Source: Hygrophila difformis
Lineage: Eukaryota; Streptophyta; Magnoliopsida; Lamiales; Acanthaceae
Direction: 5' to 3'
Assembly (NCBI GenBank): GCA_030278955.1
Contig: JAOANR010000003.1
Span: 31,759,227 to 31,823,226 of the forward strand
DNA length: 64,000 bases
Each line of letters opens with the position of its first letter. Position 1 is the first letter of the stretch. The notes below the pieces were generated by a model. It had not been told where the DNA came from, searched no databases, and worked only from the letters and a program-made list of their open reading frames with translations. The translations under genes were made by a program, and so were the position numbers. Of the stretch, positions 1 to 63,861 are shown piece by piece.

Positions 1-2541
1 TTAATTCGGTTTGTCCAATTCGGTTTATACCGAATTGCTTGACAAACCGAATTAGATGATGTTTCACATCCTTGCAAGGACTAATTGGGTAAGGTAATAC
101 TCCATTCCTCATGCATTTTCAATTCGGTCTATATTGCACTTAACCCAGTAGACCGAATTGACCTCTTCCTTTTATTCTTAAAACTCCAAAAATATTTTAC
201 TTCCTGAGTTGTGTAAGTTGCATGGGTGTATTGGGATTAGGCCCACTACATCTAATTTTATTTATTACACATCTCAACCCATTAGTGTCCAAATTATTGT
301 GTGATTAATACTTACACAATACCCAAACATATTCTGTTAATTTCATCTTTTCTCTTTAATTGTGTGTATGAATGAGTAATAAGGAATACCACAGATCAAT
401 GTTGGCAAAAAGGTCCTTTCACCGGGATAACGATTAGCTCGTCTTCTGTGTATTAATTATCACTTGTTATTTTGCATGGTCTGATTAGTGATTGGTGGAA
501 GCTCCGGCAAAAAGGTCCCTTTACGGGGATAACAATTAGCCACTCAGCCAATTCCTAATTAGATACAATTTTCTTTTCTTTATCTTAATTTCAACCTGAA
601 TTTCAAGCTTTGGTAATATCAGGCAGTGTCGATCAACACTGTTATGATAATACTGTAGTAAGGAACATGTGGGTTTTTACTCTCTCATGGATAGTAGGAC
701 TCTTGATGATAGAGATCACTGTCGTTAAGGGTTCCTCACTGTCTAAAAATCATTTCATCTGGAATAATTGGGAACTGGATAACAGATGTTTGCATGTCCA
801 GATAACCCCAGTTATTTCTGGCACTCTTTTAGCCAAATTCTTCTTATCTCAAGGCTAACCCATCATTGTGTATCAAATTCTGTCTAACTCCACCATATAT
901 TTTGGGTATTTTATTTTAATTCTCATATACATTTATGCATGATATTATTATGTAGATATTGTGGTCATAATATTTTGGGATCCTTCCCTTAGACATAGAA
1001 GTCTTGATTTAAATCAGATGCTACATAATAAATTTCCAACAAAAATCACTTTATAAAATCCGGATCTGAGCAAGGGATAATTTCACAGTTATGACTAATT
1101 CATCTTCTACTGGGGGTTGATTTTGAGAACTTAGAAGCAGAGTCAGCGATTAGGTCTCACTAGACTGAAAGGATCTGTGTTTTAATTGAGAGTCTAGTAC
1201 CTGTGTAGGGAATGATTTTCAAATATCCATTGTTTTCTCAAAATTGCTATGTGTTGGAAATCTTCTATTAAGAATTGCACCAAATCAGTGTCTATTTGGA
1301 TTCAGATAAGGTGTGACTAATAATATAAGAGGAACAACATATAGGCCTTGGTTAATTTTTAAGGTAGGGTTGAGTATTCTTTCAACTACTATCTTCTTCT
1401 GCCAAAGCCTAGAATTGAGTCTTGAGTGAGTACATCTGGAGTAGATCTTCACGAGTCTGTTCCACTCAGTTTGTGTCTCATAAATAACCAGATGTTATAA
1501 GTCTTGTGGCTTACTGATATTTGGGAAGTTCTAAATCTGCATCTAGTCACCAAGACCAAGGGCTCTTTTATACTAACGGAATGAGATAACTTTTGAAGCT
1601 TCTGAGTGATAGGATTTTAAACGCTTTCTTTATTGCTTTCTTTACTGCTTTCTTTTAAATGCTTTTATAGAGGTCACTCGGAAGAATTAGAGGCTGGCCG
1701 CCGGTTGTAAGGTTTAAGAGTTGTGGATTAGTTCGGGGTTTAATTTAGACTTTGGGTATGACAAGGGGGATGATAGGAGTACTTAGCATGTCAATTAATG
1801 ATGTGTTAGGTGTTGCTTATCCACCATGGAGAAATAACATACCTCGGCAGGGGGAGTTATTAATCTATGATATCTTAGAAGTTGAGGTCTTAAGAGCATG
1901 TAAATTCTAACTGTGAGTACCTGTCTGTTAAAGGGAACATACTTAGAAAGCATGACAGTTAGCTAATTGACGAATTATCCCAACCAAAGATTTGTGTAAT
2001 TAAAATGGAAGTTTAATTGTGTTTCATCTGCATTTTGTCCAATCTTTATTATTTCCTTCCTGTCCCTTCTGTCACATTTTAAATCTGCTTTCGTAGCATA
2101 ACTTTATCCGCTTTCTTAACATAATTTTTATTGCTTTCTTAGAATAGATTTAATTGCTTTATAGATTAATTCTATTGTGCTTTGTAGAATAATTTCATTG
2201 CTTTCATAATTTAGTTTAAATTATGTCAAGTAGTTGTTAGAAACCAATGCAAAACCTGAAACGAGTAACCGAGTGGAAAATCTTAGTAAACAACGTGGGT
2301 CCTGCTTCTATCGCACATCCTCTAGTGAACGATCCGGTCTTACTATAAATTACTGCAATTTTTGACACTGTGCGCTTTCGGGCCACAATTTCCAACATGA
2401 CTATATAAAAACGTGACAACCTATACACATATCCTTAATCCCAACTCCATCTTCATAATTTGGTTTCATTAAATAAAATCAAAACCGGGATTATTATTCT
2501 TCAGAAAATACCCATATAGTGGGAAATTGTCAAAAGTTTCA
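1..2541 (+). mobile_element. 3' part of a large Athila/Tat-like LTR
   Basis: From about 385 to 2400 this stretch matches, base for base over long runs, 54620-56640 in the LTR of the element at the right end of the window. Its last 45 bases (ending GTCAAAAGTTTCA at 2541) match the LTR end just before the tRNA-Asp primer site at 57031. No primer site follows 2541, so this is a 3' LTR or a solo LTR. The sequence resumes at 2542 in the middle of a chromovirus LTR, so the element inserted there. Its left end lies outside the window. Short ORFs inside are not credible genes. The match is seen directly; the Athila/Tat label rests on the primer site of the related copy. Confidence 0.75.
3..160. repeat. 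Palindromic array, core AATTCGGTTT
   Basis: One complete unit (3-53) reads forward AATTCGGTTTGTC, forward CAATTCGGTTT, inverted ATACCGAATTG, inverted GACAAACCGAATT, giving two nested stems. A second, simpler unit pairs CAATTCGGTCT (120-130) with TAGACCGAATTG (149-160). It lies about 220 bases upstream of the LTR body shared with the right-hand element, where a different motif forms the equivalent array. The array may continue left of the window. Function unknown. Confidence 0.75.
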
Positions 2542-4981: not shown

Positions 4982-6634
4982 CGCTCTTCAAGTCTATCTT
5001 TGTAAATATGCTCGCTCCTCCAAGCTCATCGAGCATATCGTCAAGTCGTGGTATTGGATGGCGGTACTTGATCGTGATTGCATTGACAGCCCCGCAGTCG
5101 ACGCACATCCTCCACGTTTCATTTTTTTCGGTACCAAGAGAACTGGCACTGCACAGGGAGATAGACTCTCCCGAACCCATCCCTTATCCAAGAGTTCTTG
5201 GACTTGTTTCTGGACTTCCTTAGTTTCGTCCGGGTTCAATCGGTAGGCAGGCCTATTTGGTATGGATGCCCCTAGTACGAAGTCGATCCGATGCTCTACA
5301 CCTCTCAAGGGTGGCAATCCTGCTGGCAACTCTTCTAGGAAAACATCCATGTTATCCTCCAGCATCCTGCGAAAATCATCAGGCACATTAAGTGTAGCAG
5401 TAGAGTTCTTAGGGGTTTCCTCAATAGGTTTGACAAATGCTCGAAAACAGTGACCTGGTATGGGTGCATCTTCAATGGCTGCTTCCAGCTCATGCTTTGT
5501 TAGTAGTAAGCACATATCAGAATCTGTCAAAAGTAAAGGAGATTGATTAGAATTGTCAGAATTAATTACAATCCCTTTACCCTTCTGCTTTCTCCTGTAT
5601 TCCTCTTCCTCCTTTCGGATGTTTTCCACCAAGTTGCGATGATCAATTTTAACAGTCTTTGGTGGTAGTGAATTCATCGTGATTCGACTTTGTCCATCTC
5701 GGAACGTGAGATCGTTTTCTGTGTCTCTATATATCACGCGCTTGTCATACATCCACGGTCTTCCCAATAGCACATGGCACGCGGTCATGGGAACTACGTC
5801 GCACAACATTTCTTCTGAATAAGGCCCAATAGTGATTGGTACCCGTGCTTGCTTCGCGACTTTAGTAGCCCCATGCTCGTTCATCCAATGTAGATTGTAT
5901 GGCTTCACGTGGTCTTGCATCGGTATTCCTAACCTGCGCACAGTGTAAAGGCTAACATCATTAACACACCTCCCATTGTCTACAATTAATGAGGCAACAT
6001 TGCCTTTAAGTTTACAATGGTAGTGAAATAGATTCTCCCTCTGTTCCGGAGCATTTCCCTTTGGCTCGGCTGTGAGTGCTCTCATTGCGATGAAGTTGGT
6101 CACACACTCTTCTTCATCCTCCTCCAAGACTACTCGGCTCAAATCGCCCTCGTCTGGATATTGTTCATTATCATCAGCTTCTTGTTCATCTTCTTCATAT
6201 TCTTCTTCAGAATCAACCTCCTTCCATATCCCAGATTCGATCATAACCATTCGCCTCTCTCTCTTTGGGCAATCCCGGGAATAATGGCCCTTTTGACCAC
6301 ACTTGAAACAGGTGACATCCTTGACGTCCCGCTTGGGATTATCTCGGTCGTCCTTCCTGTACTTGTATGGATCTTTGAAGTCCTTGCCCATCTCGAAGGT
6401 TTTAGGCTTGTTGGGCCTGTCATCCTTGGGTGCATTGGGCTTCCCATATTGATCAGTAGGCTTAGGAGGTTGTTCAGTGGACCTGGTTGTCCAGTACTTG
6501 GTAGTGTTGGAGATGGTGGTGGACTTGACTGGTCTATCTCTCAATTGTCGATCAATTTCTATGGCTAGCTGAACCAAATGTTCTAGCCCAGTGCATTCCC
6601 TCAATTTGATCTCTGCCAGAACTTCTCTTTTTAA
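4982..6634 (-). pseudogene. pol: E0 zinc knuckle, aspartic protease and RT start (broken)
   Basis: The main frame gives about 536 residues. Around residue 99 is a CCHC zinc knuckle (C-x2-C-x4-H-x4-C), followed by an acidic linker. The protease region around residues 195-290 has the fold features of plant gypsy proteases (CHVLLGRPW), but the catalytic triplet reads Asp-Asn-Gly at about 209-211 instead of Asp-Ser/Thr/Gly-Gly. The RT linker and VPKK motif follow, then a one-base frameshift in a run of seven A (about 5125-5131) shifts the rest of RT (CVDCGAVNAIT, RHPIPRLDDML) into the frame covering 4977-5180. RT ends at the LTR insertion. Domain calls are secure; expression is very unlikely. Confidence 0.85.
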
Positions 6635-6637
6635 TCC

Positions 6638-7620
6638 TCACTTGAACCTCGCCATTAGTAGCGGTTCATCTTCATTAATCTGCGCTCTCATCATGAGGCG
6701 TTCCAGATCTTTGTAGTATTCATCTGCAATCCTGTTGCCCTGCACACAAAAATTAACTTTCATATACAGTTCATCAAAATAACTGCTAGGAACAAACCTC
6801 TTTTCCATAGCATGAATTAATTGAGTCCATGTAGAAATAGCTGGTAGTCCCAAACACTGACTGTCGCGCTGGAGCTTCTGCCACCAGTGTAAAGCATAGT
6901 CCTTAAATTCACACACAACGAGTTGGATCTTTGTGAATTCATTATATTGTTGACAGTCATAGATTAATTCGATGGACTGCCTCCAATCGATGAATTCTTC
7001 CAGATCACTTGTTCCCTTGAACGCTGGTATGGTGAACTTGACCCCTCGTAGATCAGCTTCCATTCTATTTAGCTCTACATGTGCCCGAGGCGTATCTTCT
7101 TCCCCGGAATCATCTTCAGGATGATCCATGGGAGGTGGATTCAAGTTCAACCTCTGCCTGGTAGGTGGATGTAAGGGCTGTCTCGGGACTGCTGCTGGAG
7201 CAGCAGGTGTCGGAGGCGGTGGTGGATGTTGGAATTGAACATTTGTCGGGGCACGAGGCCGAGGTGGTGGTGGAGGCGGTGCCCGTGGACCTCGTGGACC
7301 TTGTTGCCTTTTGTATATCCCAAAATGTAATTCCTGCTCCTCGATGGCTGTTTCAGCCTCGTCCAATACGGATTGGTGGATCCCTCTAGTGCATCCAGGA
7401 GTCAAGTTTAGGACTTGTTCTTGTATGGCGATTCGATTGAGACATCATTCATGGTGTGGACAAGCGTATTGACACGCTCGTTCATGGCATCTATGCTCGT
7501 AACATTAGCATCTACGGTTTGGCGCATTGACTCAAGAGCGGCTTGCTTGGCAGTGGTTGCGTCCAGATTCCTTAGGGCTTCCATGATGTCTCGCAGTGTA
7601 GGTTCGGTGTTTCCTGCCAT
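6638..7620 (-). pseudogene. gag: E0 Gag (broken)
   Basis: The start codon at 7620 opens MAGNTEPTLRDIMEAL, a typical gypsy Gag beginning. A frameshift near 7410 moves the protein to another frame, which continues with a proline-rich stretch (about 7180-7300) and the retrotransposon Gag domain: WRQSIELIYDC, then LHWWQKLQ, then KRFVPSSYFDELYMK. An in-frame TGA at 6635-6637 separates it from the zinc-knuckle/protease frame, which continues in the same register. Gag would form the particle that packages element RNA. The copy carries at least one frameshift and one nonsense change. Confidence 0.85.
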
Positions 7621-9278
7621 AATGATCAGAAAAAGAAAATGAAACTAGTATATGTATAAACTGTTAGTAGAAATCAACTGAAATTGGTAGAGTGACCTCA
7701 CAACCGCATCCTCACTGAAGGTCCTGAATTTCCACCAGTTGGTTCGATTCCCCATTAGAGTCGTGCTCAACTGTTTCGGACAACCAACAAGGTAAGGTGA
7801 AAAAAATAGAGTAATAGACGCACAGTGCACGAAACAGAATGCAGAGTTCGACTCAATCAAGTAAAGCACAGAGTAGTGTGTGAAGTGATCAATCTGAATT
7901 AATCAATCAGTTTAATGCGTTAATCAGCTATGCAACAGATACCTCAATCCTCACCATTTAAAAGTGTAAAATATAAACCTCACAAATATAAACGCTCGGA
8001 AATAAATATCTGCCTTACTCACACAACCCCAAAATAACTATCACCAAACTGTTGGAAAACAACTCGGTAATAATTACTGTTGAGAAACTCCACTATCTGC
8101 AATTGCAGACGGAGCTTCAACTCTGTGATTTGTGAACTAAATCAGTGGAACAGTGCAAGCACTTATTCCTCGAGGAATTCCAATGTCAAGTGCGAACACT
8201 GACGGAACTTCAACCCGATAGATTGTTCGTGATTTATTTCAGTGAAATCGTACAGTGTTAGGCAAGAAAGGCACCCACAATGAAAGATATGCAATCCCGA
8301 AAGGCTTGGAAAATTTTGAATTTTGGCACTGGGATGCGGTTCACCCAGGTGATGCGGTTTAAGGATGCGATGCGGTTTACTGGGAAGACCGCATGTGGAA
8401 GACCGCACCAATACTGGACACTTGGAAAAATTTTCGGAATTTATGCTGGGATGTGGTCTATATGAGGGATGCGGTTTAATGGAGACTACATGTAATTGAC
8501 CGCATGAAGTTTGAACACTTAGAAAATATTCTGGAGTTTTGAACCGGGGATGCAGGATGCGGTGATGCGGTTTAATTGCGAAAAGACCGCATTGATTTCA
8601 AACACTTAGAAACTTTTTGAGATTTTGTGAACTTGGGTGAGGGGATGCAGTTTAAAGGATTCGATGCGGTTGACAAGTAGACCATGAGACCAATAGACCG
8701 CATGGATAAGTCCCTTTCAATAAGATAGTGACTCACTCAAGTGCTCCCAACAGAATTGGCAGGAATAATTAATTCCCACTACACTTTTGTACTACCCAAG
8801 ACAAACTTACTCCCCAAGAAAACAAAATAACACTCCCCAATAAACCCTACTAGATTAAAATCACCAATACCCAAGAACAATATGAATACTCTCAAGAAAC
8901 TCAAGAACATTCAAAAATTCAAAATCCCAACTCTCAAATAAACACTCCAAATAGAGGATAAACAAGCATATAATACCGATTAATGCTTAAAATAGAAATA
9001 TCAATCCAAATAAACCACAATAACACCAGATTAAGAGACTCACAAAGCAATATATACCAAAATATACAAGTTTTGACAAGAACACTCTAGAATACTAAAA
9101 TGTTCATGTCTTGCTCAATACTTCACAATGAACTCGAATACGGAATCAGATTTCAGAAATATCAAGATCTAAAGCACGAAAAAAATCGATGGAAAAGTAA
9201 ACAGGATAATGGGTATTCAAGAACAAACACTATTTTTGGATTTTTGATATAAAAGAAGGGTAAACTAGGCCTAATCTA
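7621..9278 (-). other. E0 untranslated leader
   Basis: This is non-coding sequence between the primer site and gag. Apart from the palindromic array at 8333-8703, it is A-rich on the plus strand (8740-9260) and holds no credible gene; short ORFs here are chance or array-derived. The leader is long for a gypsy element. Confidence 0.6.
8333..8703. repeat. Palindromic array, core GATGCGGTTT / AAACCGCATC
   Basis: About four units begin near 8333, 8452, 8550 and 8643. Each has two forward copies (GATGCGGTTT, some degenerate) followed by one or two inverted copies (AGACCGCAT). The spacers between units are themselves related (AACACTTAGAAAA, then TTTTGAAC), so this is a tandem repeat of about 100-119 bp whose other half is palindromic. 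It lies in the E0 leader, and the same core recurs in the E0 LTR. Confidence 0.8.
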
Positions 9279-9290
9279 GCTCTGATACCA
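9279..9290 (-). other. E0 primer-binding site (tRNA-iMet)
   Basis: Read on the minus strand this is TGGTATCAGAGC, the standard plant gypsy primer site complementary to the 3' end of initiator methionine tRNA. It fixes the element's orientation and places the LTR to its right. Confidence 0.8.
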
Positions 9291-9613
9291 AAAGAACTAC
9301 TGCCATGGATCGACTAAGCACTAGTTTAGAAAGAAGAGATGAAGAACACAATAAAATAAAATGGATAAGGAGGCTACCATGTTGAAGAACCCAATCCGAG
9401 AATCGGTTGTGTTCGACAACACCCACGACTCCCCCAATCACTAATCCGAGTGGTGAACGTTACGATCAAGCACACCTCTTGCTTGAAAGGAATGATCCAA
9501 TGATGGATGATTCAATATTGACCTTCGAAAGCTCTTGGATTCACACACCAAAGAGAAACACGCAATAAGTTGTACATTCATTCAAAGGTGAGAACCAAAG
9601 TGTTAGGGAGGCC

Positions 9614-9621
9614 ATATATAT
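9614..9621 (-). promoter_or_regulatory. TATA box of the E0 LTR
   Basis: TATATATA on the minus strand, with the GATGCGGT array about 90-480 bases upstream and the primer site about 320 bases downstream, as expected for a U3-R-U5 layout. Confidence 0.5.
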
Positions 9622-9711
9622 AGATATCCCAAGTTATAAAAGAATTCAACAACCCTAGCTCGATAATCAACAAAGCAACAAAATAATAAAACCCTTAAAA
9701 TATCCCGCAGG

Positions 9712-10100
9712 GATGCGGTCTAAAGGCATCGATGCGGTTTACAAGGCAAAAAGACCGCATCGGATGCAAAACAAAAATACAACAGAAAATAAGGCAATAC
9801 GGTCTCTGGGATGCGATGCGGTCTAATCGATGCGGTTTAAACCACATGAGGTAGACCGCATGTAGTGGAAATCGCATGAAGGCTGCCAACTGGGGTGGTG
9901 CGGTCTGAGGCGTGCGATGCGGTCTAGTCGATGCGGTCTATTATAGACCGCATGTGGGAGACCGCATGCAACGGATCCGAGGGTTGGAGGACATTCTGAG
10001 GCGATGCGATCTTGGTTGGCTGGATGCGGTCTAGACCGCATCAGTTCTTGCGGAGACCGCATCAAGGCTAAAAACTCGGAATTTTGAGAATGCGGTCTTG
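9712..10100. repeat. Palindromic array, core GATGCGGTCTA, in the E0 LTR
   Basis: Repeated forward GATGCGGTCTA and inverted TAGACCGCAT copies. The clearest unit is about 9917-9970 (two forward copies, then two inverted copies ending in GACCGCAT), and another is at about 10021-10065. Several forward copies are doubled as GATGCGATGCGG. The core is the same as in the E0 leader, so the two arrays belong to one element. The array lies upstream of the LTR TATA box in the direction of transcription. Confidence 0.8.
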
Positions 10101-33695: not shown

Positions 33696-34292
33696 GTATA
33701 TATCTACTACTTCTACTTGTCAATTTCAGTTTTTACGCTTTGAATCGCTTGATTTTTGGACGGATCTCAAGATTAGGGTTTATGAGTTAGAATTGGGGAT
33801 TTATGATTTCTAGACTTAATTCGCGCGAATTAGCGAGTTTATGTGATACTTGATGCTATTTTAGTTGTTTAGGAAGTATTTGTGCAACAATGTATACCTA
33901 GTTTTGGGAAATTTTTACTAGATTCTTGGTTTTAGGAAGAATATGAAATTCCCGATTTGTATTGGTATTGCGGCCATGAGAAAGAGTTCATTGTGTTGTT
34001 TTGTGCCACATTATGATGATGAGTTGTTGCCTAGGCAATCGTTTCTATTTGGGGATGATTCCCATGTATTTGTAAGTAAGCTTTGAATTTGGTTTATTGC
34101 GCACATAGCGTGTTTGACTAAATGTCCCAAAGAGTTTTGGGATTTGTTTGGACGTATTCTTTGTTTGGTTATCCCCTTGGATTGCTCGTGTTAGAGACTA
34201 CACTTCATGTTCTTGCGTTTTTCTGTCCTATACTTGGTACAGTCGTTGTGTAGGATTTAACCTTATATTTGGTATTGGTTGGGTATTTGCAG
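33696..34292 (+). other. 5' intron of the element B cargo gene
   Basis: Donor AAG, GTATATATC; acceptor GGGTATTTGCAG; 597 bp. It matches in position and ends the 627-bp intron in element A. Confidence 0.65.
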
Positions 34293-34293
34293 G

Positions 34294-35424
34294 ATGCTGC
34301 TTTTCCTGTGGGTTGTCTGGGCGTCTCTTATGGTTCTTCCGGGGGCCAAGAGACGAGCCACTCGGCGTGACGCAGCTGGCCCTAGTACTGCTGCTCCGGT
34401 GATGCCGGATACTGACGATAGTGAGTCTGAGGGGGTCGAGGAGCAGAGGGGTCCGAGACTCAGGGGTCTTCCTGACGAGGTGCGTCCCCGCCGACACGAT
34501 AGGTATCGGTTTGCGACGATGGCTTCACAGGAGTTCTATTTCGACGAGCTTCGTTGGAACAGGGGTTATGTTCCGGAGAGAGGCATGTATCCTCGTCATT
34601 TAGACGATGACAGGGTTAGGGCGGTTTTGGACCATCTTAAATGGACTGGACTCTCGCGCCATCCCAAGGGCATTGCTTCTGGTTATTTAGCTATGGAGGT
34701 CATAGCCAACATTGGCGGTCTTGGGGAGAACAGCGACTTATCTCAAGTCTGGGTTCGTGGTCGCTACCTAGATTTCAGTGCTCAGGCGATCAACGTCTAC
34801 TTCGGTCTCCCTGACGACGGCGTATTTCAGCCACAGCCTGAGGGTCGTATACCCGCACTGAGGTGGCGCCTCGACTAGAGCACGGTCACGAGCTGCGGCT
34901 GGCGACGATGGACACACCGTGGCGTGAGCTTGCGCAGATATGGTTAGGGCGCGTCCGGCCGATTACCCGGAGCCACATCGTCCTAGATCATGTCTAATGA
35001 GACCATTTGCTTTATCGCCCGAGGTGGTAGGGTGAATGTTGGGGCTTGTATCACGGATAATATGAGGGGTATGCGCCGAGGACGAGGGAGTAGGGTGATC
35101 ACTCATGTTCACCTTATTTGTGGTTTGTATGCGGCTCAGGGGATCCGTACGACACCGGAGACGGATCCTTACGAGTTAGCTGCTGGTGACTACTACCGTA
35201 TCCCTACCTACGCTGCTCGACGCGGTGCTTTGCGATAGGGAGCTCCTCGGGCTGTCCTTCGCCCGGAGCCCGATGGTGATGGTTTGATTCTAGTTGTTCC
35301 TCCTGAGCAGCCACCTCCACCTCCCGTGGTTCCCCAGCAGGATCCGGAGATGCCGCAGATACTTCAGATGATGCAGGGTATGCGGCTTAGTATATTTGCT
35401 GGGTTCGCAGCCGGGCGGACCATG
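34294..35424 (+). pseudogene. PF20167-type cargo ORF in element B (broken)
   Basis: ATG directly after the splice acceptor (MLLFLWVVWASLM, a hydrophobic start, then PGAKRRATRRD). The domain regions are the same as in element A: RGMYPRHLDDDRVRAVLDHL, WVRGRYLDFSAQAINVYFGLPDDG and RGGRVNVGACITDNMRG...VITHVHLICGLYAAQGI. A small deletion near 34855 shifts the frame (stop at 34876-34878), a stop occurs near 34997, and another at 35236-35238. Its 3' end is cut near 35420, fused to the antisense coiled-coil ORF. The parent protein's role is unknown; members of this family are scattered in plant genomes within transposable elements. Confidence 0.75.
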
Positions 35425-52540: not shown

Positions 52541-52857
52541 TGATAATGGCCAGAAATGACCATTATTTTCAATCCATTTCCGTGTCTTAAACGGGCATTT
52601 GATCGCATTCCGGTCTTACATTAAGTAAGAAAGCAGTCGAATTGGACTGATTTATGCATAATTGTAAAAATAATAAGCTGGTGTGAAAAAGGCATAAATA
52701 TGCAATTTTATTACATATTTATGTTAGAAAAATCCAAACACATGAGAAAAAGAAAAGAAAAGAAAGAGGACACAAAAAGATGGGAAAAAGAGAGAAAAGC
52801 CCACAAAAAGAATATTTTCGGCCCATCTGGCCCAATCCAGCAGGCCCAGGAACACCT

Positions 52858-53105
52858 TTGTCGCGGAAGCCCCTTTGTCGCGATGCATGGTTCCGCGACA
52901 AAGGAGGGTTCCGCGACCAAGCAAGCTCAGATGAAGGAGAAGACCAGCCAGATACTTTTGTCGCGATACCTTTGTCGCGATGCCCTGTTCCGCGACAAAG
53001 GTCTATTCCGCGACAAAGACACCCAATTAGAGACACAAGACCCAGTCGAGAAGCTTTGCCACATGCAGTGTGTTCCGCGACCAAACTTGGTGCTCCGAGA
53101 CAAAG
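52858..53105. repeat. Palindromic array A, core TTGTCGCGGAA
   Basis: Units at 52858-52923 and 52958-53018 each read forward, forward, inverted, inverted (TTGTCGCG / TTCCGCGACAAAG). A third, with only inverted copies left, lies at 53071-53105. It ends about 70 bases upstream of the TATA box at 53174. Confidence 0.85.
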
Positions 53106-53173
53106 CTGTGATGTGTGTGATGTCTTGAGACACAATGGGCTCAAATCAAGGCCCATGAGCTTAGGGTTTACCC

Positions 53174-53183
53174 TATATAAATA
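53174..53183 (+). promoter_or_regulatory. LTR TATA box
   Basis: TATATAAATA, preceded by GGCCCATGAGC and the telobox-like TTAGGGTTT (53161-53169), both common in plant promoters. The presumed transcript start is near 53205-53215. Confidence 0.6.
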
Positions 53184-53807
53184 TGAGGTGTTTCCTTTGA
53201 GCAAGGGTTGGAAGAATTTTAGAGAGAATATACACTATTGAAGACAAGTTGGGAGCTCAGTAGTTTAGTTTAGTTTAGGGTAATTTAGTTAGGTTTTTCT
53301 TGTATTATTTAATTTATGCATTAGTTAGATGTAGATTATAGCTTTTTAGTTTAGATAGCCAGTTTTTACATCTTGTTTCTTGTTCTAAACTTTTGTTTAA
53401 GGGTTTGTAATACCTAAATCATGGGTATTAACAAACCCACTTAATAATATGGGAAAACATTCTCCATTTGTGTCCCAAAAATCATGAAATGGGTTCCACA
53501 CCCCATGGATCTTACTGCTTTCGTTTTCTTTGGGTCATTTGATCCTTATTTTGCATTTTAATGTCACTGCTTGGTGACTCTTCTTTGGATAATGTTGCAT
53601 GCTTATGGGTGATCAAGCTTAGATTAGGGTTTCTTAAGTTTTAAGTTTGTTTTATTTCCATTATGTTCAAGCATGTTCTAGCTAGATTTAAATTCTGTTT
53701 TGTTATTTTTAGCTCAGTTTACCTTTTGAATCTGAAATGGGTGAGATCACACACAATGCATGCCACTGTTCCACTTTACTTTTCTGACATGTGTCCTGGA
53801 CACGCTT

Positions 53808-54262
53808 TTGTCGCGGAACAACTCTTGTCGCGGAACCACGTTCCGCGACAAAATGATGCTTTGGCGACAAAGGTGCCAAAGAACAGTTGTTAGCCATATT
53901 TTAAAACCCTTGGTCGCGAAACAACTCTGGTTCCGCGACAAAATCCGTGATTAGCGACCAAGGACCCAAATACTTATGATTTTATTATGGAAGGGCTTTG
54001 TCGCGAAGCAACCTTGTCGCGGAACCACGTTCCGCGACAAAACCTATTGTCCGCGACAAAAATTATGCCCTTGTCCCATTTTCAACCTTTTTGTCGCTAT
54101 ACCTCCTTGTCGCGGAACCATGTTCCGCGACAAAATTTTTGCTTAGCGACAAAACAAACCCTAATTTTCAAAATATCCATTCCTCTTATTTCCCACCCCT
54201 TTGTCGCGAAACCCTTGTCGCGGACCCATGGTCCGCGACACAAACTCTATTCCGCGACAAAG
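53808..54262. repeat. Palindromic array B, core TTGTCGCGGAAC
   Basis: Five units start at 53808, 53911, 53998, 54091 and 54201 (spacing 87-110). The clearest inner stem is TTGTCGCGGAACCACG / TTCCGCGACAAA; outer copies are more degenerate (TTGGCGACAAAG, TTAGCGACAAAA). It lies downstream of the TATA box, so it would be transcribed. Confidence 0.9.
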
Positions 54263-56654
54263 TGGCACCTTTTTGCCAAATTTTTATTCTTCATCTCACC
54301 CTATTAATTAATTGAACCTTTATACTAATATTTTGAGGTTGAAATCCAATGATCTCAACCCATGATTAATTTGATATAAAGAACTTTGTTCAATTTCCCA
54401 TTAAAAGATTCTTCTACAAAAATTAAACTCTAATGATCTAAGTATATAATCCGGACTGTAATTAATTAATTATGGAATGAGTGATTATTTAGACATGACG
54501 AGTGAATATGGAATCAATTCCATATCTTGCATGAGAAACCAATGTCTCTCATGCAAGATGACCCAAAAATATTTTCTTTTATTTAGTTATTTTGTCTTTA
54601 CCCGTGTTGTGTGAAACAGCTAGTAAGAGATATATCAGACTAATGTTGGCGGGTATTCCCACACGGATAACTAGCTCGTGGTCTATATATTAATTAAAAG
54701 TTGTTATTTTGCATGGTCTGGATAGTGGCCGGTGGAAGCCTTGGCGGTTCGTCCATCCGGGATTATAATAGCTGCTCAGCTGACTCCTATCCGGATACAG
54801 TTTTCTTTTCTTTATTTTAATTTCAAACCTGAATCTGGAGCTGTAGTAATGTTAGATGATATATGCCAATGTCATCTAATAATTATTCCAGTAATAGAAC
54901 ATGTGGGTTTTTATCCAAACTCACAGATAGTGGAGTCTAAGATGACGGCGGCAACTGTCATTTGAGGCATTCCACTGTCTAAAAATCATTCCATCTGGAA
55001 TAATTGGGAACTGGATAGCAGATGTTTGCAGTCCAGATCACCCCAGTTATTTCTGGCACTCTTTTTAGCCAAATAAATTCTTCTCATCTCCGGCTATTTC
55101 ATCTTTGTGTTTCAACTTCTGTCTAAACCCACCGTATATGTTGGGTTATTTGATTTTACACTTCTCATATAAAATTATGCATGATAATATTATGTAAATA
55201 TTGTGGTCATATTATTTTGGGATCCTTCCCTTGGACATAGAAGCCTTGATTTTATAATCAGATGTCTCATATTAAATTTCCAACAAAAATTCATTTATAA
55301 AATCCGGATCTGAGTAAGGGATAAATTCCACAGTTATGACTAATTCATATCCGACTGGGGGTTGATTTTGGGAAATTAGAAGCAGAGTCAGCGATTAGGT
55401 CTCACCTAGACTGAAAGGATCTGTGTTTTAATTGAGAGTCTAGTACCTGATAGGGAATGATTTTCAGATTTATTATTTTCCAAAATTGCTGTTTGTTGGA
55501 AATCTTGTATTAAATATTGCACTGGGTCAGATTCCACTTGGATTCCGATAAGGTGTGACTGATAATACTAGAGGAACAACATTCGGGCCTTGGTTATTTT
55601 CTAAGGTAGGGTTGAGTATTCTTTCAACTGCTATCCTCTTCTGCCAAAGCCTATTTTGAGTCCTGAGTGAGTGCATCCGGAACGAACTAATTTATTAGTC
55701 CGTTTCATTAGTTTGTATCTCATAACCACCCGAAGGGAAGTGAACACTGCGAGCTGTTCACTGAGATTAGGGAATTCTTGATCCACACCCAGTCATCCTG
55801 ACTGGGGGCTTTCTTTTACTACCAGGGTCAGACTTTCAAAAACCTCCGAGTGATAGGATTTTAAATGCTTTCTTTACCGCTTTCTTTTAACTGCTTTCTT
55901 TAGAGGTCACTCGGTTGTATTGAGAGTTGCGTAACTGCTACTAGGACTGATAGTTAAGGGATAGTTCAGGGTTTGATTAGAATCTTTGGGTGTGACATGG
56001 GGGGATGATAGCGGTACTTGCCACTTCAATAAATGATTTGTCAGGTGTTGCTTGTCCACCACAGATGAATAGCATGCCTCTACACGGCCGTGTGAGGGCA
56101 GTTGTGAGTCTGTGGTATCTTAGATTTTGCTGTCTTAAGAGCATGTAAACTCCTACTGTAAGTACCTGTCTGTTAAAGGGAACATAGTATAGAGAGCATG
56201 AGAGTTAGCTAATTGAATGGATTATCCCAAACAAAGATCTGTGTATTAAAATGGAAGTTTAACTGTGTTTCATCTGAACCTTGTCCAATTTTTATTATTT
56301 TCTTCCTGTCCCTTCTGTCATAATTCAAATATGCTTTCTTAGAATAATTGTAACCGCTTTCTTAGAATAATTTTATTGCTTTCTTAGATTAAATTCAATT
56401 CGCCTTCTAGAATAATTTTACCTGCTTTATTTTAATTGCTTTCATAGCTTAGTTTAAATTATGTCAAGTAGTTGTTAGTCATAACACAAACTTGAATCGA
56501 GTAACCGAGTGGAAAATCTTAGTAAACGACGTGGGCCCTGCTTCCATCGCACATCCTCCAGTGAACGATCCGGTACTTACTATAAATACTGCAATTTTTG
56601 ACTCCGTGCGCTTTCGGGGGCACAGTTTCTTAACACGAGTAAATAAAAAATGTG

Positions 56655-57048
56655 ATTTTTCAGAAAATACTCATGTAGTGGGAATCTCCCGAAAATTTCA
56701 TGGTAGGTAATCTCATGACATGAAATCATGAGAAGTATCATGGCACATATGCCGGGGACCCTTAGTGTGACAGGCTGAAGGTCAATCTATCCCGGTTGTA
56801 CCATGAGACTTGTCAAAAGTTTCATGACATGAGAGGACTGCAGCGCCATTTGAAATTAAAGCATCCCACCTGAGTAATAAAGAGTGACACTCTTAATGTA
56901 TCCCTAAACCCATTCCATAAATCATAACTCTTTTCGTTTAATAAATTTAAACCTGATATATTTTATAATAAATTCAAACTCGATATACTTCAGAAAATAC
57001 TCGTGTTAGTGAAATTTGTCAAAAGTTTCATGGCGCCGTTGCCGGGGA
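56655..57048 (+). repeat. Triplicated LTR-end / primer-site segment
   Basis: The segment TTCAGAAAATACTC...AAAATTTCATGG occurs at about 56659-56701, GTCAAAAGTTTCATGACATG at 56816-56835, and the true LTR end plus primer site at about 56991-57048. A degenerate primer-like TGGCACATATGCCGGGGAC lies at 56737-56755. Confidence 0.65.
57031..57048 (+). other. Primer-binding site (tRNA-Asp)
   Basis: TGGCGCCGTTGCCGGGGA, perfectly complementary to the 3' end of plant tRNA-Asp with CCA. It marks the LTR end and the start of minus-strand DNA synthesis. Confidence 0.92.
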
Positions 57049-57553
57049 GGATGCAGCGTCGTTTATTAAGAGACTTACACTCCTGATTACTCATAGATTA
57101 GTTTAGATCAGCTTAGTTTAGTGTAATATATTTAACAGAAAAAGTACCCTCAAGACTAATTGAACATTTAGAGTACCAAGACTCTAAATGTGAGGATGTT
57201 GAACTGAGGAGAAAACCTAACCTATTGGGTATTTATCTGTCTTGCAGGAAATTCGGAACCACCCATAAAGAAGGAGCAGAAAAAGCATGGAAAACCAGGT
57301 TCTTGGTTGGGAAAATTCCACGAATCTGAGAAATTATTTTCGGAATTTAAAGCAATTTAAGATCCGGAATAAATCTCGCAGATAAATGGAACTGACCCAA
57401 CCTAATTTTATGCAAGTAGATTATTTTAAATAATGGCCCAATGTTTTGAATTTATTTGGTCTGAATTCATTCAGGTCCAAATCAAATAAAATGGACGCAG
57501 GCCCAACATCGCACTCGGGCCCAGTCCGTTGAAAATTTGAAAATTCAAAAAGT
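57049..57553 (+). other. Leader segment, non-coding
   Basis: No gene. It contains the stem-loop CATTTAGAGT / ACTCTAAATG (57165-57190) followed by TGAGGATGTTG and, about 45 bases on, a possible splice acceptor TCTTGCAG (ending 57247). Confidence 0.5.
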
Positions 57554-57965
57554 TTGTCGCGGAATGACCATTTTGTCGTGGAACAACGTTCCGCGACCAA
57601 ATGCAACTCAGCGACAAAGTTCCCCTTATCATCAAACCCTGTTTGTCCTTGTCGCGGAGTAACCATTTTGTCGCGATGCACAGCATCGCGACCAAGTGCA
57701 ATTCCGCGACAAAACTCCACTCATCCCTGAACTCTGTTTGTCTTTGTCGCGGAACACTTTGTCGCGGAGCACTGCATCGCGACAAAGCTCCTGTTCCGCG
57801 ACACGAGCACACCACCCCATTCTTCCTTGCCATTTTGTCGCGGTACACTTTGTCGCGGTGCATGACTCCGCGACAAAGTCCCATATTCCGCGACACCTCT
57901 AATGTCGCCGAGCCTGGTCGCGTAATCCTGTTCCGCGACACTGGGCTAGGGTTCCGCGACCGGCC
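57554..57965. repeat. Palindromic array C, core TTGTCGCGGA
   Basis: Units start at 57554, 57649, 57744 and 57835 (spacing 95, 95, 91), with a degenerate fifth at about 57902-57965. Each reads forward, forward, inverted, inverted; in some units the inner pair is TCGCGATGC / GCATCGCGAC. Spacers carry a shared AACTCTGTTTGTC. The array ends directly at a GGCCCAT box and TATA-like sequence. Confidence 0.9.
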
Positions 57966-57979
57966 CATTAGTATTTAAA
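57962..57979 (+). promoter_or_regulatory. Candidate internal promoter of the spliced gene
   Basis: GGCCCAT (57963-57969) and TATTTAAA (57972-57979), about 155 bases before the ATG, followed by a C/T-rich untranslated region. Position and composition mirror the LTR promoter at 53155-53183. Confidence 0.5.
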
Positions 57980-58132
57980 CCTCTCCACCTCCCTCTTCTT
58001 CCCTACGCATCCCACACTTAGAAAATTTTCGGAAAAATCTCTCGTACGCGAAACTGCCATTTTCGAACGAACACCACCGTGTTCCTTCGCAAACCCGACC
58101 ATTCTCAGGGGAAACTCTGCCCGATTTCTGCC

Positions 58133-61100
58133 ATGGAACCTTCGTCTTCATCTTCTCCAAAGCAAGCCGAGCCCTGGTAAGTGCTCTCTTGTCTGTTCCT
58201 CGCTTGCCCATTGCCCTGTTCTCGCATTTTCGGGGGTTTTCGTATTTTGGCTCTTGAGAATGTGTGAATAGGTTTCCTTTTGGGATTATTCCGATTAGTG
58301 GAGTTCGATTTTAGGGACTGTGCAGTTTGGGCATGTTTGGATTTTGATTCCCTGATTTCGTTGTTAATGGCCGAGCATGATTAGGAGCTAGGCAGTTTGT
58401 TTTGGTTGTTGCAGAGGCATGAATAGGAGTAGGGGTATGCTTTTTGTTAATAAGGATGCATATGGGAGTTCGGTTTGGCAGTGATAAATTTTACCAGTGA
58501 TGAGTTTTGAGTTTGTTGGGTTCTTAGGTTTCCCCCTTGCTAATTCTTGTTTTAATCTTTGTTTACCTTTTGGGATCCGTGTTATTTTAGATTTGTATGA
58601 ATCTTGAAGCCTGGAATCTGAGAACCGATGAACACTTGGTTGTTTTTGAATAGCTTGATTGGCCTTAATAGTTTTGTATTCAAAGCATGCTGGGTTCACT
58701 TTGTTTCATGATTTAGAATAAGTGAGCATGTCAATTGTTTGATTTTCTGTTTTTGATAAGTGGAAGCATGATATTGTGTTCTTGTTGTAAGTTCATGAGT
58801 GTTGCATGCCTTGTGGGCATTTAATGCTGGTTCCCTATTTTGGCATGTAGGCTGCAAGTTTTTGTGAAAGGTATGTTTGTCTGTGTTGGGCAATCTGTGC
58901 ACCAATTCCCTTTGCAAGTTTACTTTTCCACAAAAAGACAAAAATAGTGATAGGAATTTTGGTTGGCAAGTTGTTTTTGTTCCCAATGGAACTAAAAAGT
59001 GTGAGTTAAGTAGCAGTATTTTGCCACCTCAACTGCTATCTTTTTACAAAATCCAAAAATGGGACCACACACATCCCACTTTTCATTAAATAAAATCAAG
59101 TCAACCTTTTCAAAATTAAAAATAGTGCTTGCAAATTTTCTTGAACGTTTTAACTGTCCAATGACAGTCCAAACAATCCGGAAATAGCAAATCCATCCCG
59201 CCACGCCTCCATTGCACATTCCATTTTCGAGCTATCCATTCCATCATCGTCATTTCATTCCATTTTCAACAAGTGCCTCGAGCTTGTTTAATAAAATTGG
59301 AAAAGCAAACTTTTTGGGCCCATTAGCCTACTAAAAAATTCTCTAAGTCCAATGACTTAGACTTCTTTAAATTAATTAATGGCATATGCCTTATGATAAT
59401 GTTTTGAGTACTAATCAAATAAATCACATTTCGAGCAAAGCTCAAAATGTGAGGATGTTGGTTTTTGGCTTGAAACTCAATTTTCAAAAATATATAAAAA
59501 CTTGATTGGAATTAATACTTTCTATATTTTTCAGGAATGAACTAGTGATTAAGTCAGCTATTGGATTGCCCGATTGCACCCTGCATCAGGCAGCAGTAGA
59601 AGCATCTGCAAACAGGACTCAGATTAAGAAGCTCAGGGAGGCTCTGATAAGCGTGTACGGTGTTCCATTGGACCAGGGCACTGAAGCTGAGTTATCATTG
59701 AGGCCCGGATGGGACGTAAAAATCCCTCCTGCAGATAGATCAACCGCCCTGACGAACTGGGAACTAATGACAGACCATGCCCCGCATGATTCCATAATGA
59801 CACCCGAAGTGCATTTGGAAAGAATCACACTGAAGTTCCAAATACACACAGCTGTCTGGCAACGTCATCTAGAAGATGGAACAGTGGGAATCGATATCTC
59901 GAACTATGATATACTCATTCCCGACCAGCCCATAGACCCACAAGTGCGATTGCAGTTCGTGGAAAGACCTTTACCGGTGAGCCAGATACTGGCAAAGGGA
60001 GCCATTTCAATGCATGAAGCCTTCCCTTGCATTTGGAACCCGAGGTTATTTGACAACATGGGAAGAGAAGAGCAGAGATGGGTAACCAGGCAGGCTAAGC
60101 TAAGACACCGGGAAATGAGTTACAACCTGCGCCACAAACTGAGGAGAATCGAGGAGTTCAACACAGAAAGGAACTCCACCATGATAAACAAGTTTAGAGA
60201 AGAAATCAATGCAGCTCGGACGGAATGGCACGAGATGGCACGTCTGTGGGGACAAGGCAAAGGTTTCATAACACAAGAAAGATTGGATAAAGGATTGACC
60301 TTGCCAGATGAGGATAATTTTGAGACGATTTTCATAAACAAGCGGTTTGGCCAGACAAGACCAATGGAGAAGGGAACTGAGGTGAACCCTGGATTTCCCG
60401 AGCGCATCAGAGAACTAAGGGAAAAAGCCCTTTATGAGGTGCAGCACCACAATTGGTCAGTATTGACCAAAAAGAAGGTGCAACTCAGATTAATGACCGA
60501 GGCTGAGGCAAAGGAATATCTGACGTTTGACAAAGCACAGATGATGACTTATGTGACAGAAGAGCTAGAAAGAGACATGATCAACACCATGATGGAGCAA
60601 TATAGAACTTCATATCTTGAACTCCTCATGGAAATGGATAGAGAAGCCTTGAGGTATGGGAAGGAGGGAAATAAAACGAAGGTCATGCACTATAACCACA
60701 AAATCAGGAGCCTGTTTTGCACACGGATTAAGGAGGCTTGGGAATTTAAACTGGTCCGGGTAACAAGTCAGACATTCGTGCACGATTATCTGAGATTTGC
60801 ACACAAATTGTTTGGAACTCAAGAAGCTCAGGAGGATCCGGAGGACCCAGATGCTGAGATTGATGCCTATTTTTCCACCCCTCCTGAGGCCAACCCACAG
60901 CCTACCCAGCCAGCAGTACAAGCTTCGGCTTTACCGCTAAGAGGGCAGACTGAAGTGCAAGAAGTTGCTACGTCCGAGCCAGTGGTGCAACAAGAAGCAG
61001 TCCGGACTCCAGTACAGCCAGCTCAGACTGAAATGACAACACCTGCTGCAGCACCTGCCACCACTGTTGCAACCATCCCGCCCGAGCAGACATCCAATAC

Positions 61101-63861
61101 TGTTGTTACACCTGAAAGTCAGCCAGCACCTCAACCGGGAACGAGGAGAAGGTTGATAAAATCTGCTGACAAAGATAAACCAGCAAGAGCTCCGGAAAAG
61201 AAAGTGGAGATCAAGGAACCTGAGCCAACTGCTAGGAAAGTGGCAGAGCCCACCGATCCCAAGGACAGAGGTAAGAAGCCGATGCCACCACCACCCCCGA
61301 AAAAGAAGCATCAAGTGGCATTCGATGCTGAGCTAGCCAGAAAAATGCAAAATGATGAACTTGCATTAGCTGGTCTGCTGGATCAAGTAACAGGTTGTTC
61401 GGGAGTAGAGAAAGTGACTGAGGAAGAATGCTTGGCGAGGGAACAGAAAGCTGCAGAGGAGGAGCAGATCAGAAAGAATATTCAGCAGATGAAGGACGAA
61501 GAGACTGCCAAGAAAATGCAAGCTGATCTGGAAAGCAGGAAATCTGGAGAGGCTGAACAGGGTGATGAGGAAGATTTCGAGCTGAAAATCACTGGTGGAA
61601 TCGAAGGAAGGGGATTGAAGATCAAAGAAGAACAACCGTCAGGATGGACTGGCCCTTTTATTCGTAGTGCTGAGACACTTCGGGAAGAATTGAGACAGAA
61701 CATCAACGAACAGATTGAAACGAGAATTGATGTTGGAGAAAAGCCAAATCAAATCAGATATCAGATAGAAGTGGGTCAATTGATTGATCCTCTCGTGGGC
61801 ACGGCCAGGATTGAAGAATTCATCACTCAAAAAGGCCCGTCGCACCAACCTGAACAGTCAGAAGGACCACAAGATTCCATAGATCCGGTAGCACTGGCCA
61901 AAACCTTGGGAAAGCAGCCAGGCGACCATCCCATGGCCTCTGCACTTAAGGAAAATGTTCAGGAAATCGTGACTGAAGCTGCAGAGGGAAATGATTCAGA
62001 AGAAGAAGCTCGGCAGGAGGAGCATGAATTCATGGACCAGATGGCGCCTATTTTGCAACGTCCAGTTGGACGAGCTGCAAGAATTAGGGAGGAGGAGGAG
62101 GTATCAACTGATGTTGATCACCGTAATTTTCATGTAACTACTTTTTCTTTGCCTGTAAATAGTGAACTCAATACAATGAAAATTGTAATTAAGCAGGTTG
62201 AGGAGGAATTCGGAGATGAAACAGCTCATGGAGGAGGAGAGCCAAGTCAGAGGAGAGATGAGGCTGAACCAAGGGATGACCAGCCACAGGAAGGAGACGA
62301 TCAAACAGACTGGCACACGAGCGACGAAGAATCTGTCGGATCCATTCGACCAGTCGAGTTCTGGTCCGAGAATACTGTGAGGCAGAGGATGGGCGTTTCA
62401 AAGGGATATGAGAAGAAAAAGCTGAGCGCAGAACAGGTTCAAATCAAGTTCAATGGCAATAAAGAAAATGCAGAAAAGTATAAGAAATTGCAGAAAAGGA
62501 TAGTGCCGGACAAAGGATTCAGACCCGATGCCCTATCTCACCCCACTGTTGAGACCTTCTACAGGAATCAAGAGTGGGGGAATTTCATGCTACACCAGGA
62601 GGAAGATGGCTTCGTGGAGCTGACAAAGGAATTCTTCTGCAATATCGACAAGGCTGCCAGAACAACATGGATCCGAGGACAAGTGATAAACATCGCACCT
62701 GACTGGCTGAATCAGTTCTTCGGGACTCCAGATATCCGAAGCGAATTCCCCCCTGATGAGATCATGACAAAGAGAGCCAAGACGAGCGAATATGCGAGGT
62801 ATGCAACCTTGGCAAACAGCATGACAAGAATAACTGCCCCCGGGCACACATTCGATGCAAATTGGCTAAGTCTGAAATTCATGCCAACTTATGAGTTTTA
62901 CATGTCTAAAATCCGGCCTAATTCGCACCCACACACCACATCTGGGAATGTATTAATGGGATTTGCAAGAATGTGGAGCGGAGCGAAGCTGAATGTGGGG
63001 AGGCATGTGTTCGAAGTGATGATAACCCGGATAGAGGACAGACAAGTGCTATGCTATCCAAATCTGATTAGGAGAATCTGCATTGCTCAGGGAGTTGATT
63101 TGAGTGCTTTCGAGGGTGACGTGGTGGTGAAAGTAAATCCACCCATCAGTGTGCCGAGACTTCCCCTGTGTGAGAGTGTTAAGTATTCTCTCCCTCAGAT
63201 GTTCGGCAGAGACAATCCAGACGACCAATCCTCTTTCATATCAAGTGGGCAAGCATCGAGAAAAAGAAAGAGACAGCCCAAGACAAAGAAGGGAACACAT
63301 AAAACCTGTGCTGATGCAGGACCTTCAAATGTCCAAGAAGAGCCCCCTGCAGATCAAGAGCAAACAGAAGTGCCAAATCCAATTCCGGCAGCTCCGACTC
63401 GACCTCAACCTCAGATGCCTCCTCAAAGCCATAACGTATCTCAATTCCCTGTTGATTCCCAAGCAATTGAGATGGTGAGCAGGATGAGCCAATCTATGCT
63501 CGAGGGAATGAAGTCCATGACTAATGTAGTCATGGCAAGCCAAGAGGAACAGCGAAAAAGGGCCGAAGAGGAACGTGAAGAGCGAAGGAGGGAGAGAGAA
63601 GAAGAACGCCAAGAGCGTAGGAGAGAAAAGGAAGAGAAGCGAAAGGAGAAGCAGGAGAAGGAAAAGAAAGAGGAGGAGTTCAAGAAAATGATGATGGAAA
63701 GGGAAGAGCGCATGCACAGAGAAAGAGTGGAGAGTGAAGAAAAGCAGCGCAAGATGATGGAAACACTGATGCAAGCACTCATCAGTCAACTTCCCAAGCC
63801 ACCCCCACCTCCATCAGATGCAGCAGGACCATCAAATCAGCCAGGAGAGAAAACGGATTGA
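58133..63861 (+). CDS. Spliced element gene with PF20167-like C-terminal domain, about 1,456 aa
   Basis: Exon 1 (58133-58176) starts in good context (CCATGGA) and encodes MEPSSSSSPKQAEP plus two bases. The donor GTAAGT at 58177 and acceptor TTTTTCAG at 59534 join it in frame to exon 2 (59535-63861) as W-NELVIKSAIGLPD. Without splicing exon 2 has no early ATG. Residues about 1-460 are charged and unrecognised (MREEQRWVTRQAKLR-like helices); about 460-720 are Pro/Ala/Lys/Glu-rich. Residues about 1000-1220 resemble the plant transposon-associated family PF20167 (VETFYRNQEWGNF, VIRGQ-like WIRGQVINIAPDWLNQFFG, LKFMPTYEFYM, LNVGRHVFEVMITRI, YPNLIRRICIAQGVD). The C-terminus is a long Arg/Glu/Lys coiled coil ending in a Pro-rich tail. 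No catalytic motif. The function is unknown. The frame is open, so the copy is young. Confidence 0.75.
58177..59534 (+). other. First intron of the spliced gene (1,358 bp)
   Basis: GTAAGT donor, TTTCTATATTTTTCAG-like acceptor, AT/T-rich, no long ORF in frame. Near its 3' end is a stem-loop CACATTTCGAGC / GCTCAAAATGTG (59425-59451) followed by AGGATGTTG, echoing 57165-57201. Confidence 0.7.
62101..62196 (+). other. Possible in-frame intron (exitron) of 96 bp
   Basis: GTATCAACTG opens and AATTAAGCAG closes an AT/T-rich segment inside a Glu-rich coding region, with a T-rich run CTACTTTTTCTTTGCC inside. Its 32 codons are in frame and code for hydrophobic, unlike neighbouring, residues, so the protein reads through either way (EEEE to VEEEF if removed). 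Confidence 0.45.

Follow-up and report, generated by a model that had tools for sequence, protein, structure and literature searches.

Promoter-proximal word arrays in long terminal repeat retrotransposons of Hygrophila difformis: a constant four-site layout with a changing word

In the VANDAL transposons of Arabidopsis, which are of the Mutator-like (MULE) type, the protein VANC21 binds its motif and induces loss of methylation, and the accessible parts of two reports describe short family-specific motifs at high density in noncoding transposon DNA, with related families using different motifs and motif sets turning over rapidly (PMC5735166; PMC10398659). We describe arrays that resemble the VANDAL motifs in these respects, including the high density of an element-specific word in noncoding DNA, in a stretch of 64,000 nucleotides from Hygrophila difformis (assembly GCA_030278955.1, contig JAOANR010000003.1, positions 31,759,227 to 31,823,226), here called the window. 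They belong to a long terminal repeat (LTR) retrotransposon, element A, in which the word TTGTCGCGGAA recurs as two forward copies followed by two inverted copies (F-F-R-R). The arrays are a real, widespread and ordered promoter feature, in which the word changes and the layout stays. Their differences from the VANDAL motifs are also clear. VANDALs are DNA transposons, and in the accessible text VANC21 motifs share one orientation and have been spread by tandem repeats, whereas the arrays here follow F-F-R-R with polar spacing and the spacers of one of them, array 2, are unrelated (PMC5735166; PMC10398659). Because the sites are oriented by another rule and no reader protein was found, we do not file the arrays as a member of the VANC-VANDAL system, which we take as the closest working analogue.

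Other described systems share single features with this locus. The BII boxes of Tnt1 are located upstream of the TATA box. Like the arrays, they lie in an LTR, where they bind host factors, but as far as the accessible part of the source goes they have no four-site nested dyad, no second copy before an internal promoter and no lineage-wide word swap (PMC3316501). The gene23 of Grande and the TRP28 open reading frames (ORFs) of Retand are extra genes after pol, that of Grande with a separate promoter, which recalls the accessory genes described below; in the accessible text those genes are antisense, whereas the ones here are sense, putatively spliced and preceded by an array of the LTR-promoter type (PMC7264820; PMC11963269). 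The term F-box does not occur in the main text of either paper. In sunflower, Athila clade C elements show local drops of methylation in LTR regions or near edges, in all contexts; these are Athila elements as well, but no cis motif arrays are described in the part of that source available (PMC12844716). In the literature searched, neither such arrays nor Athila-type elements with F-box genes were found described, a weak negative because subscription papers lay outside the search.

The original prediction, made from the letters alone, had placed F-F-R-R arrays between 52858 and 57965, and their order is not one that chance produces. At one mismatch or fewer, TTGTCGCGGAA has 30 matches in the window, all at 52858-57941, where 1.14 were expected and none of 100 shuffles reached 30. 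At three mismatches or fewer, the sites of arrays 1, 2 and 3 read FFRRFFRRRR, FFRRFRFFRRFFRRFFRR and FFRRFFRFFRRFFRRFFRR, giving 10 FFRR blocks that none of 50000 orientation shuffles matched; the order of array 1 taken alone was equalled in 598 of 20000. A detector blind to the word, run over the window and its flanks, scored 70 overlapping windows at 7 or more against 2 in a Markov-1 control, and by hand count of the list 62 of these fall on arrays and 8 on other repeats. Word-blind matches in L019 and L027 turned out on inspection to be other kinds of repeat; positions 8690-9240 of L019 carry dense inverted repeats of a GATCCTA motif, which are of a different kind.

Unit geometry was measured on 125 distinct complete units from 22 sources (the window, L009 and L012-L031), with equal limits on both sides. 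Start distances are 13-20 for F-F, 20 for F-R in 112 units, and 18-22 for R-R. R-R exceeds F-F in 117 units, is shorter in 7 and equal in 1, so that the units are polar relative to transcription; the copies of the arrays are related, so the 125 units are not independent events. A passive, satellite-like expansion of inverted repeats without function would fit the 95 bp tandem periodicity seen in part of array 3. We consider it very improbable: the spacers of array 2 are unrelated and unrepeated, which rules out a simple tandem repeat as an account of that array, the inner spacing is nearly fixed, the spacing to the TATA box is regular, and the same layout recurs at homologous places with different words.

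Arrays 1 and 3 lie just ahead of TATA boxes. After array 1, the first TATA-like string is found at +70 to +72 in 16 of 23 copies and at +92 in one, and none was recognised in the other 6. The original prediction is extended by the finding that the array at 57554-57965 directly precedes an internal TATA box. In all nine loci that show the box GTATTTA[AT]ACC, which represent eight elements as L007 and L018 overlap, the nearest motif starts exactly 16 bp upstream. By a different measure, three further arrays of the word TTGTCGCGG, from the survey described below, have TATTTAT 17, 17 and 39 bp past the last site; across the survey arrays generally, a TATA-like string follows 17-39 bp on after some and is absent after others. 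In one group of elements TATTTAA lies at +15 from array 2 (+34 in L018); no clear TATA was found after this array in the remaining elements, the window copy included.

The same layout is found with other words at homologous places. The LTR at the left end of the window and that of L010 are about 80% identical to the LTR of element A over 54672-56649, and just before array 1 they match it at 83% over 139 bases and 80% over 270 bases. Both carry arrays of CAATTCGGT before the TATA box and again later, at places homologous to the TTGTCGCGGAA arrays. The L010 copy (5210-9932) is a solo LTR with a target-site duplication (TSD) TGCTT, identified by eye. Of the 22 complete FFRR blocks of CAATTCGGT, 20 have an inner gap of 4; R-R exceeds F-F in 21 and equals it in 1; the remaining blocks are incomplete or longer (FRR, FFR, FFRRR). 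The array at positions 3-160, by itself too short to judge (5923 of 20000 orientation shuffles were as good), forms the tail end of a longer FFRR array starting left of the window (L011). Of the three families for which one architecture had been proposed, the TTGTCGCGGAA arrays and this one thus conform, and the third, of the element E0, does not keep the strict order. The wider claim that the shape is conserved while the sequence differs holds.

As a rule, one element uses one word. In each of seventeen stretches (16 arrays, one split by the window edge) one of three words occurs, and exact copies of the other two are absent. As had been predicted, a word can stand in the LTR and again in the internal region or leader of one element (element A and E0). 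A CAATTCGGT element on C1 likewise has its word in the LTR (L038) and in an internal array past the integrase (L037), and after that internal array come a TATA box, a short exon that starts with ATG and has a GTAAGT donor, and a further exon (L040) in which TPR_27 is matched (8e-7) and the F-box falls just below the cut-off (19.9 vs 20.5). For the TACGACGC element L047, one word per element predicted the same word in its LTR, and L061, taken at the distance where that LTR should lie, indeed has two arrays, separated by CTATAAATAG, that together contain 11 sites of TACGACGC and 12 of TACGGCGC and no exact copies of the other words. The exception is L049, where 15 ATGCGGT and 9 AATTCGGT sites are mixed at 120-780 (sense) and single units combine the words, several with AATTCGGT outer and ATGCGGT inner; this array may be an intermediate of a word switch.

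Genome-wide, the exact TTGTCGCGGAA pair occurs 4684 times forward and 4547 times in reverse (9231 in all), and the CAATTCGGTYTA pair 2053 and 2178 times, with no occurrence of either pattern read backwards. At least one array was present in all 20 loci fetched around TTGTCGCGGAA word pairs (L012-L031), which were chosen by word and so show the layout, not its frequency. A word-independent survey used a degenerate pattern for the integrase end, which hit 2030 places; from 100 listed places, all on C1, 20 were chosen for codon variety and about 850 bases downstream were read. An array followed pol in 18 of these elements and was absent from that interval in L055 and L056, so that the arrays do recur in other copies whether or not the word guides the choice. 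The survey words were TTCGAATT (10), TTGTCGCGG (3), TACGACGC/TACGGCGC (2), AATTCGGT (1), ATGCGG (1) and the mixture of L049 (1), counts that are not frequencies because picking for variety over-samples rare types. TTCGAATT is palindromic, and F-F-R-R is therefore unreadable in its arrays; in 27 of its units, for which the way of counting fixes the inner distance at 10, R-R exceeds F-F in 15, equals it in 10 and is shorter in 2. Five words have appeared so far, TTGTCGCGG, AATTCGGT, ATGCGGT (also the word of E0), AATTCGAATT and TACGACGC/TACGGCGC; AATTCGGT, ATGCGGT and AATTCGAATT differ by 1-2 bases, which leaves about three clearly unrelated groups. The proposal that a CGG step is all the cores have in common does not hold generally, as TTCGAATT lacks CGG and only the second of TACGACGC/TACGGCGC has it. 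In L046 and L047 the arms are TACGACGC or TACGGCGC, often one per unit side, a recurring one-base arm difference of which the E0 word (GATGCGGTTT/GATGCGGTCT) gives a hint too. The L046 element, which apparently contains LTR sequence, is probably rearranged.

We propose, with a probability of roughly 0.62 and by analogy with the VANC targets of VANDALs, that the arrays are promoter-proximal sites at which a sequence-specific DNA-binding factor sits in a defined orientation, and that the specificity of this factor changes from lineage to lineage. Each unit of 60-70 bp, in which one short word stands four times, twice direct and then twice inverted, would be read by an oligomeric factor held in a fixed orientation relative to transcription. 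Such units stand upstream of the LTR TATA, further on within the LTR, and upstream of the internal TATA that precedes a putatively spliced accessory gene; as a rule one word serves a whole element, and other lineages of the same element group use other words. That the layout is kept while the word is switched by lineage argues, as had been suggested, for element-specific recognition, and word and reader probably coevolve. Binding would presumably activate transcription; with less assurance, we suggest that it may protect the promoters from silencing, the role that VANC has in VANDAL transposons. A further step, possible at somewhat worse than even odds, is that the layout serves as a private, evolvable address: a single protein scaffold would recognise the fixed four-site layout wherever its own element has a promoter, different lineages would adopt new words, and the reader would protect or activate kin only, so that mutually blind clans could coexist in one genome.

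The factor need not be encoded by the element. The arrays could instead be binding sites of host transcription factors, multiplied to form an LTR enhancer, with different lineages recruiting different host factors, or one host factor family of variable specificity being involved. The position of the arrays just upstream of the TATA box is what such an enhancer would show, and the LTR boxes of Tnt1 bind defence-induced host factors, according to the accessible part of the source (PMC3316501). The layout, however, is constant while the word changes, LTR and internal arrays change together, and the same polar four-site layout is not expected of unrelated host factors. We regard amplified host sites as unlikely, with the qualification that our proposal leaves host or element origin of the protein unfixed and that the two overlap to this extent.

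Several observations weigh against the proposed factor with lineage-wise specificity. Only about three of the five words are fully unrelated, 10 of the 18 survey arrays carry the palindromic word in which F-F-R-R is not readable, and the mixed array of L049 means that the use of one word is not absolute. Two of three LTR word checks were uninformative, L041 and L052 having fallen on coding sequence or a different insertion; the single informative one was positive. The kind of accessory gene does not follow the word: exons with F-box/TPR occur with both TTGTCGCGG and CAATTCGGT, and the PF20167 frame stands with TTGTCGCGG in the window, similar frames (by eye only) with other words. A binding protein was not found, the Pfam matches of the accessory proteins scanned being F-box/TPR or PF20167, with no VANC-like family. 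The remaining points concern pairing between arms. Among double changes in the A-type comparisons 7 are matched, where a crude estimate gives about 1, and 4 are unmatched; the inner arms covary beyond their class in the tail (0 of 2000 permutations, among related copies); the flanks of the inner arms show 153 A-C against 18 G-U on the sense strand; and the antisense strand folds more stably in 10 of 11 arrays (3' LTR duplicates account for two).

These last points would suit hairpins of RNA, a function listed in the original prediction, or of extruded DNA. F1-F2-R1-R2 would form a long hairpin with an asymmetric internal loop, possibly in antisense RNA, serving packaging, dimerisation, RNA stability, or as a source or decoy of small interfering RNA, with the shape selected and the sequence free. 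The arrays are strongly foldable, the loop sizes are polar and asymmetric, A-C on the sense strand corresponds to G-U pairing in antisense RNA, and between two CAATTCGGT LTRs (C1 to C2) 5 double changes are matched (about 0.5 expected) and 1 unmatched, single changes being A-C or G-U in 9 cases and other in 7. The wobble test, by contrast, is flat. In eight A-type arm comparisons, which are non-independent, single changes at paired positions are 15 G-U and 18 A-C, with no wobble preference on either strand, and 37 others break the pair. The drift of the arms thus consists mostly of uncompensated singles with a small excess of matched doubles, and the compensatory changes anticipated in the original prediction are borne out only to that extent. 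The outer arms covary little (tail 193 and flank 24 of 2000 permutations) and were rejected as compensatory partners; the unit set for the covariation and flank tests was collected with unequal search windows on the two sides. The flank bias is identical across many related units and may be a single inherited feature. Within an element every stem of every unit uses the same word, which selection on hairpins does not require, and arrays 1 and 3 stop just ahead of TATA boxes. With the wobble test flat, we rejected an RNA hairpin as the main account, although flank bias and antisense folding point the opposite way, and consider it quite unlikely.

We read the arrays as DNA sites under symmetrical selection, with some structural hints remaining. 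Sites are more alike than spacers in all 21 pairs among 7 related arrays; in array 2 the similarity of spacers is 0.44-0.52 (shuffles 0.38-0.47) and that of units 0.60-0.86. The observed-to-expected ratio of CpG is 0.85-1.52 in arrays against 0.06-0.76 in neighbouring sequence, an indirect hint on methylation.

Element A is a complete, young LTR insertion, and its landmarks are collected in Table 1. We take its primer-binding site to be of the Athila/tRNA-Asp type, and the Athila name used for these elements is our assumption from primer-binding site and integrase features. As to the features of an Athila-type Ty3/Gypsy element, LTRs, TSD and primer-binding site are present in the window element itself, and the order gag, reverse transcriptase, RNase H, integrase comes from a related element with the same word. 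No gag-pol frame is in the list of ORFs between the LTRs of element A, so this copy looks non-autonomous. Its 1451-aa frame matches PF20167 (Putative plant transposon protein; E 3.6e-13, Pfam scan), and by eye a putative intron runs from a GTAAGT donor after 58176 to an AG acceptor ending at 59534. No Rfam family matched above its gathering score within the window.

In related elements with the same word, the array, TATA box, short exon and intron are located after pol; L025 has gag, reverse transcriptase, RNase H and integrase in one frame, and L018 the integrase end. The L018 module leads to an exon with F-box (PF00646, 1.6e-5) and TPR_27 (4.1e-8) matches. L029 and L031 share this gene, with TPR_27 above the cut-off in both and the F-box above it in L029 and below it in L031. 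In the window, the same kind of promoter-exon-intron module stands ahead of a different ORF, that of PF20167. The coding pieces of L041 and L052 resemble this PF20167 frame by eye. Between the two word groups, integrases are 82% and F-box exons 54% identical. All six pairs among four F-box exons have a ratio of nonsynonymous to synonymous substitution (dN/dS) of 0.13-0.27, with dS above 1 in five, so that the exon has evolved under purifying selection. The exons of L018 and L029 (dS 1.27, 68% protein identity) lie within a spanning 5.2-kb alignment that is 88.9% identical, which suggests that the coding exon was exchanged between lineages. A single-sequence structure model of the PF20167 domain was unusable (predicted local distance difference test score, pLDDT, 30.3), and a search of solved structures with the F-box exon gave 8 rows with E of 0.034 to 0.66, none convincing.

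The element E0 fits the pattern only loosely, in that its word is common to LTR and leader and strict F-F-R-R is not followed. The order of its LTR array, FFRFFFRRRFFFRRFFRRF, was matched by 626 of 20000 shuffles and that of its leader array, FFFRRFFRFFRFFR, by 11551 of 20000. Its primer-binding site is presumably of the tRNA-Met type.

Table 1. Features of element A, E0 and related elements. Positions are those of the window unless a locus is named.
Feature	Position	Strand	Remark
5' LTR, element A	52541..57030	+	TSD GTGAT
Array 1 (TTGTCGCGGAA, order FFRRFFRRRR)	52858..53103	+	upstream of LTR TATA
LTR TATA box CTATATAAATA	53173..53183	+	70 bp past array 1
Array 2 (TTGTCGCGGAA; 18 sites at <=3 mismatches)	53808..54260	+	downstream of LTR TATA
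Primer-binding site TGGCGCCGTTGCCGGGG	57031..57047	+	directly after 5' LTR
Array 3 (TTGTCGCGGAA; 19 sites at <=3 mismatches)	57554..57962	+	upstream of internal TATA
Internal TATA box GTATTTAAACC	57971..57981	+	nearest motif 16 bp upstream
Putative exon 1 (ATG ... TG^GTAAGT)	58133..58176	+	splicing read by eye from sequence
Putative exon 2	59535..63861	+	inside listed ORF 59506-63861 (1451 aa); in phase with exon 1
3' LTR, element A	~65476-69966, beyond window end		99.4% identity to 5' LTR
Tail of CAATTCGGT-word array in related LTR	3..159	+	position corresponds to array 2
Second PF20167 frame	34279-34878		below Pfam cut-off
E0 leader array	8333..8704	-	before gag; no clear TATA after
E0 primer-binding site TGGTATCAGAGC	9279..9290	-	
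E0 LTR TATA TATCTATATATAT	9614..9626	-	by eye
E0 LTR array (GATGCGGTYT)	9712..10098	-	~86-90 bp upstream of minus-strand TATA
F-box + TPR_27 accessory gene	L018 6709-6047; L029 3898-4608; L031 3835-4548; L040 2411-1545	all -	sense to element, putatively spliced

If the proposed reading is true, sequence-specific self-recognition, known from the VANDAL DNA transposons, would have arisen also in LTR retrotransposons, the main component of many plant genomes. The open question of how the word of a DNA reader can change would then become directly testable, as one genome offers a series of words at the same position and in the same geometry, together with a possible intermediate in L049. Such recognition could also explain the lower methylation of some Athila-type LTRs.

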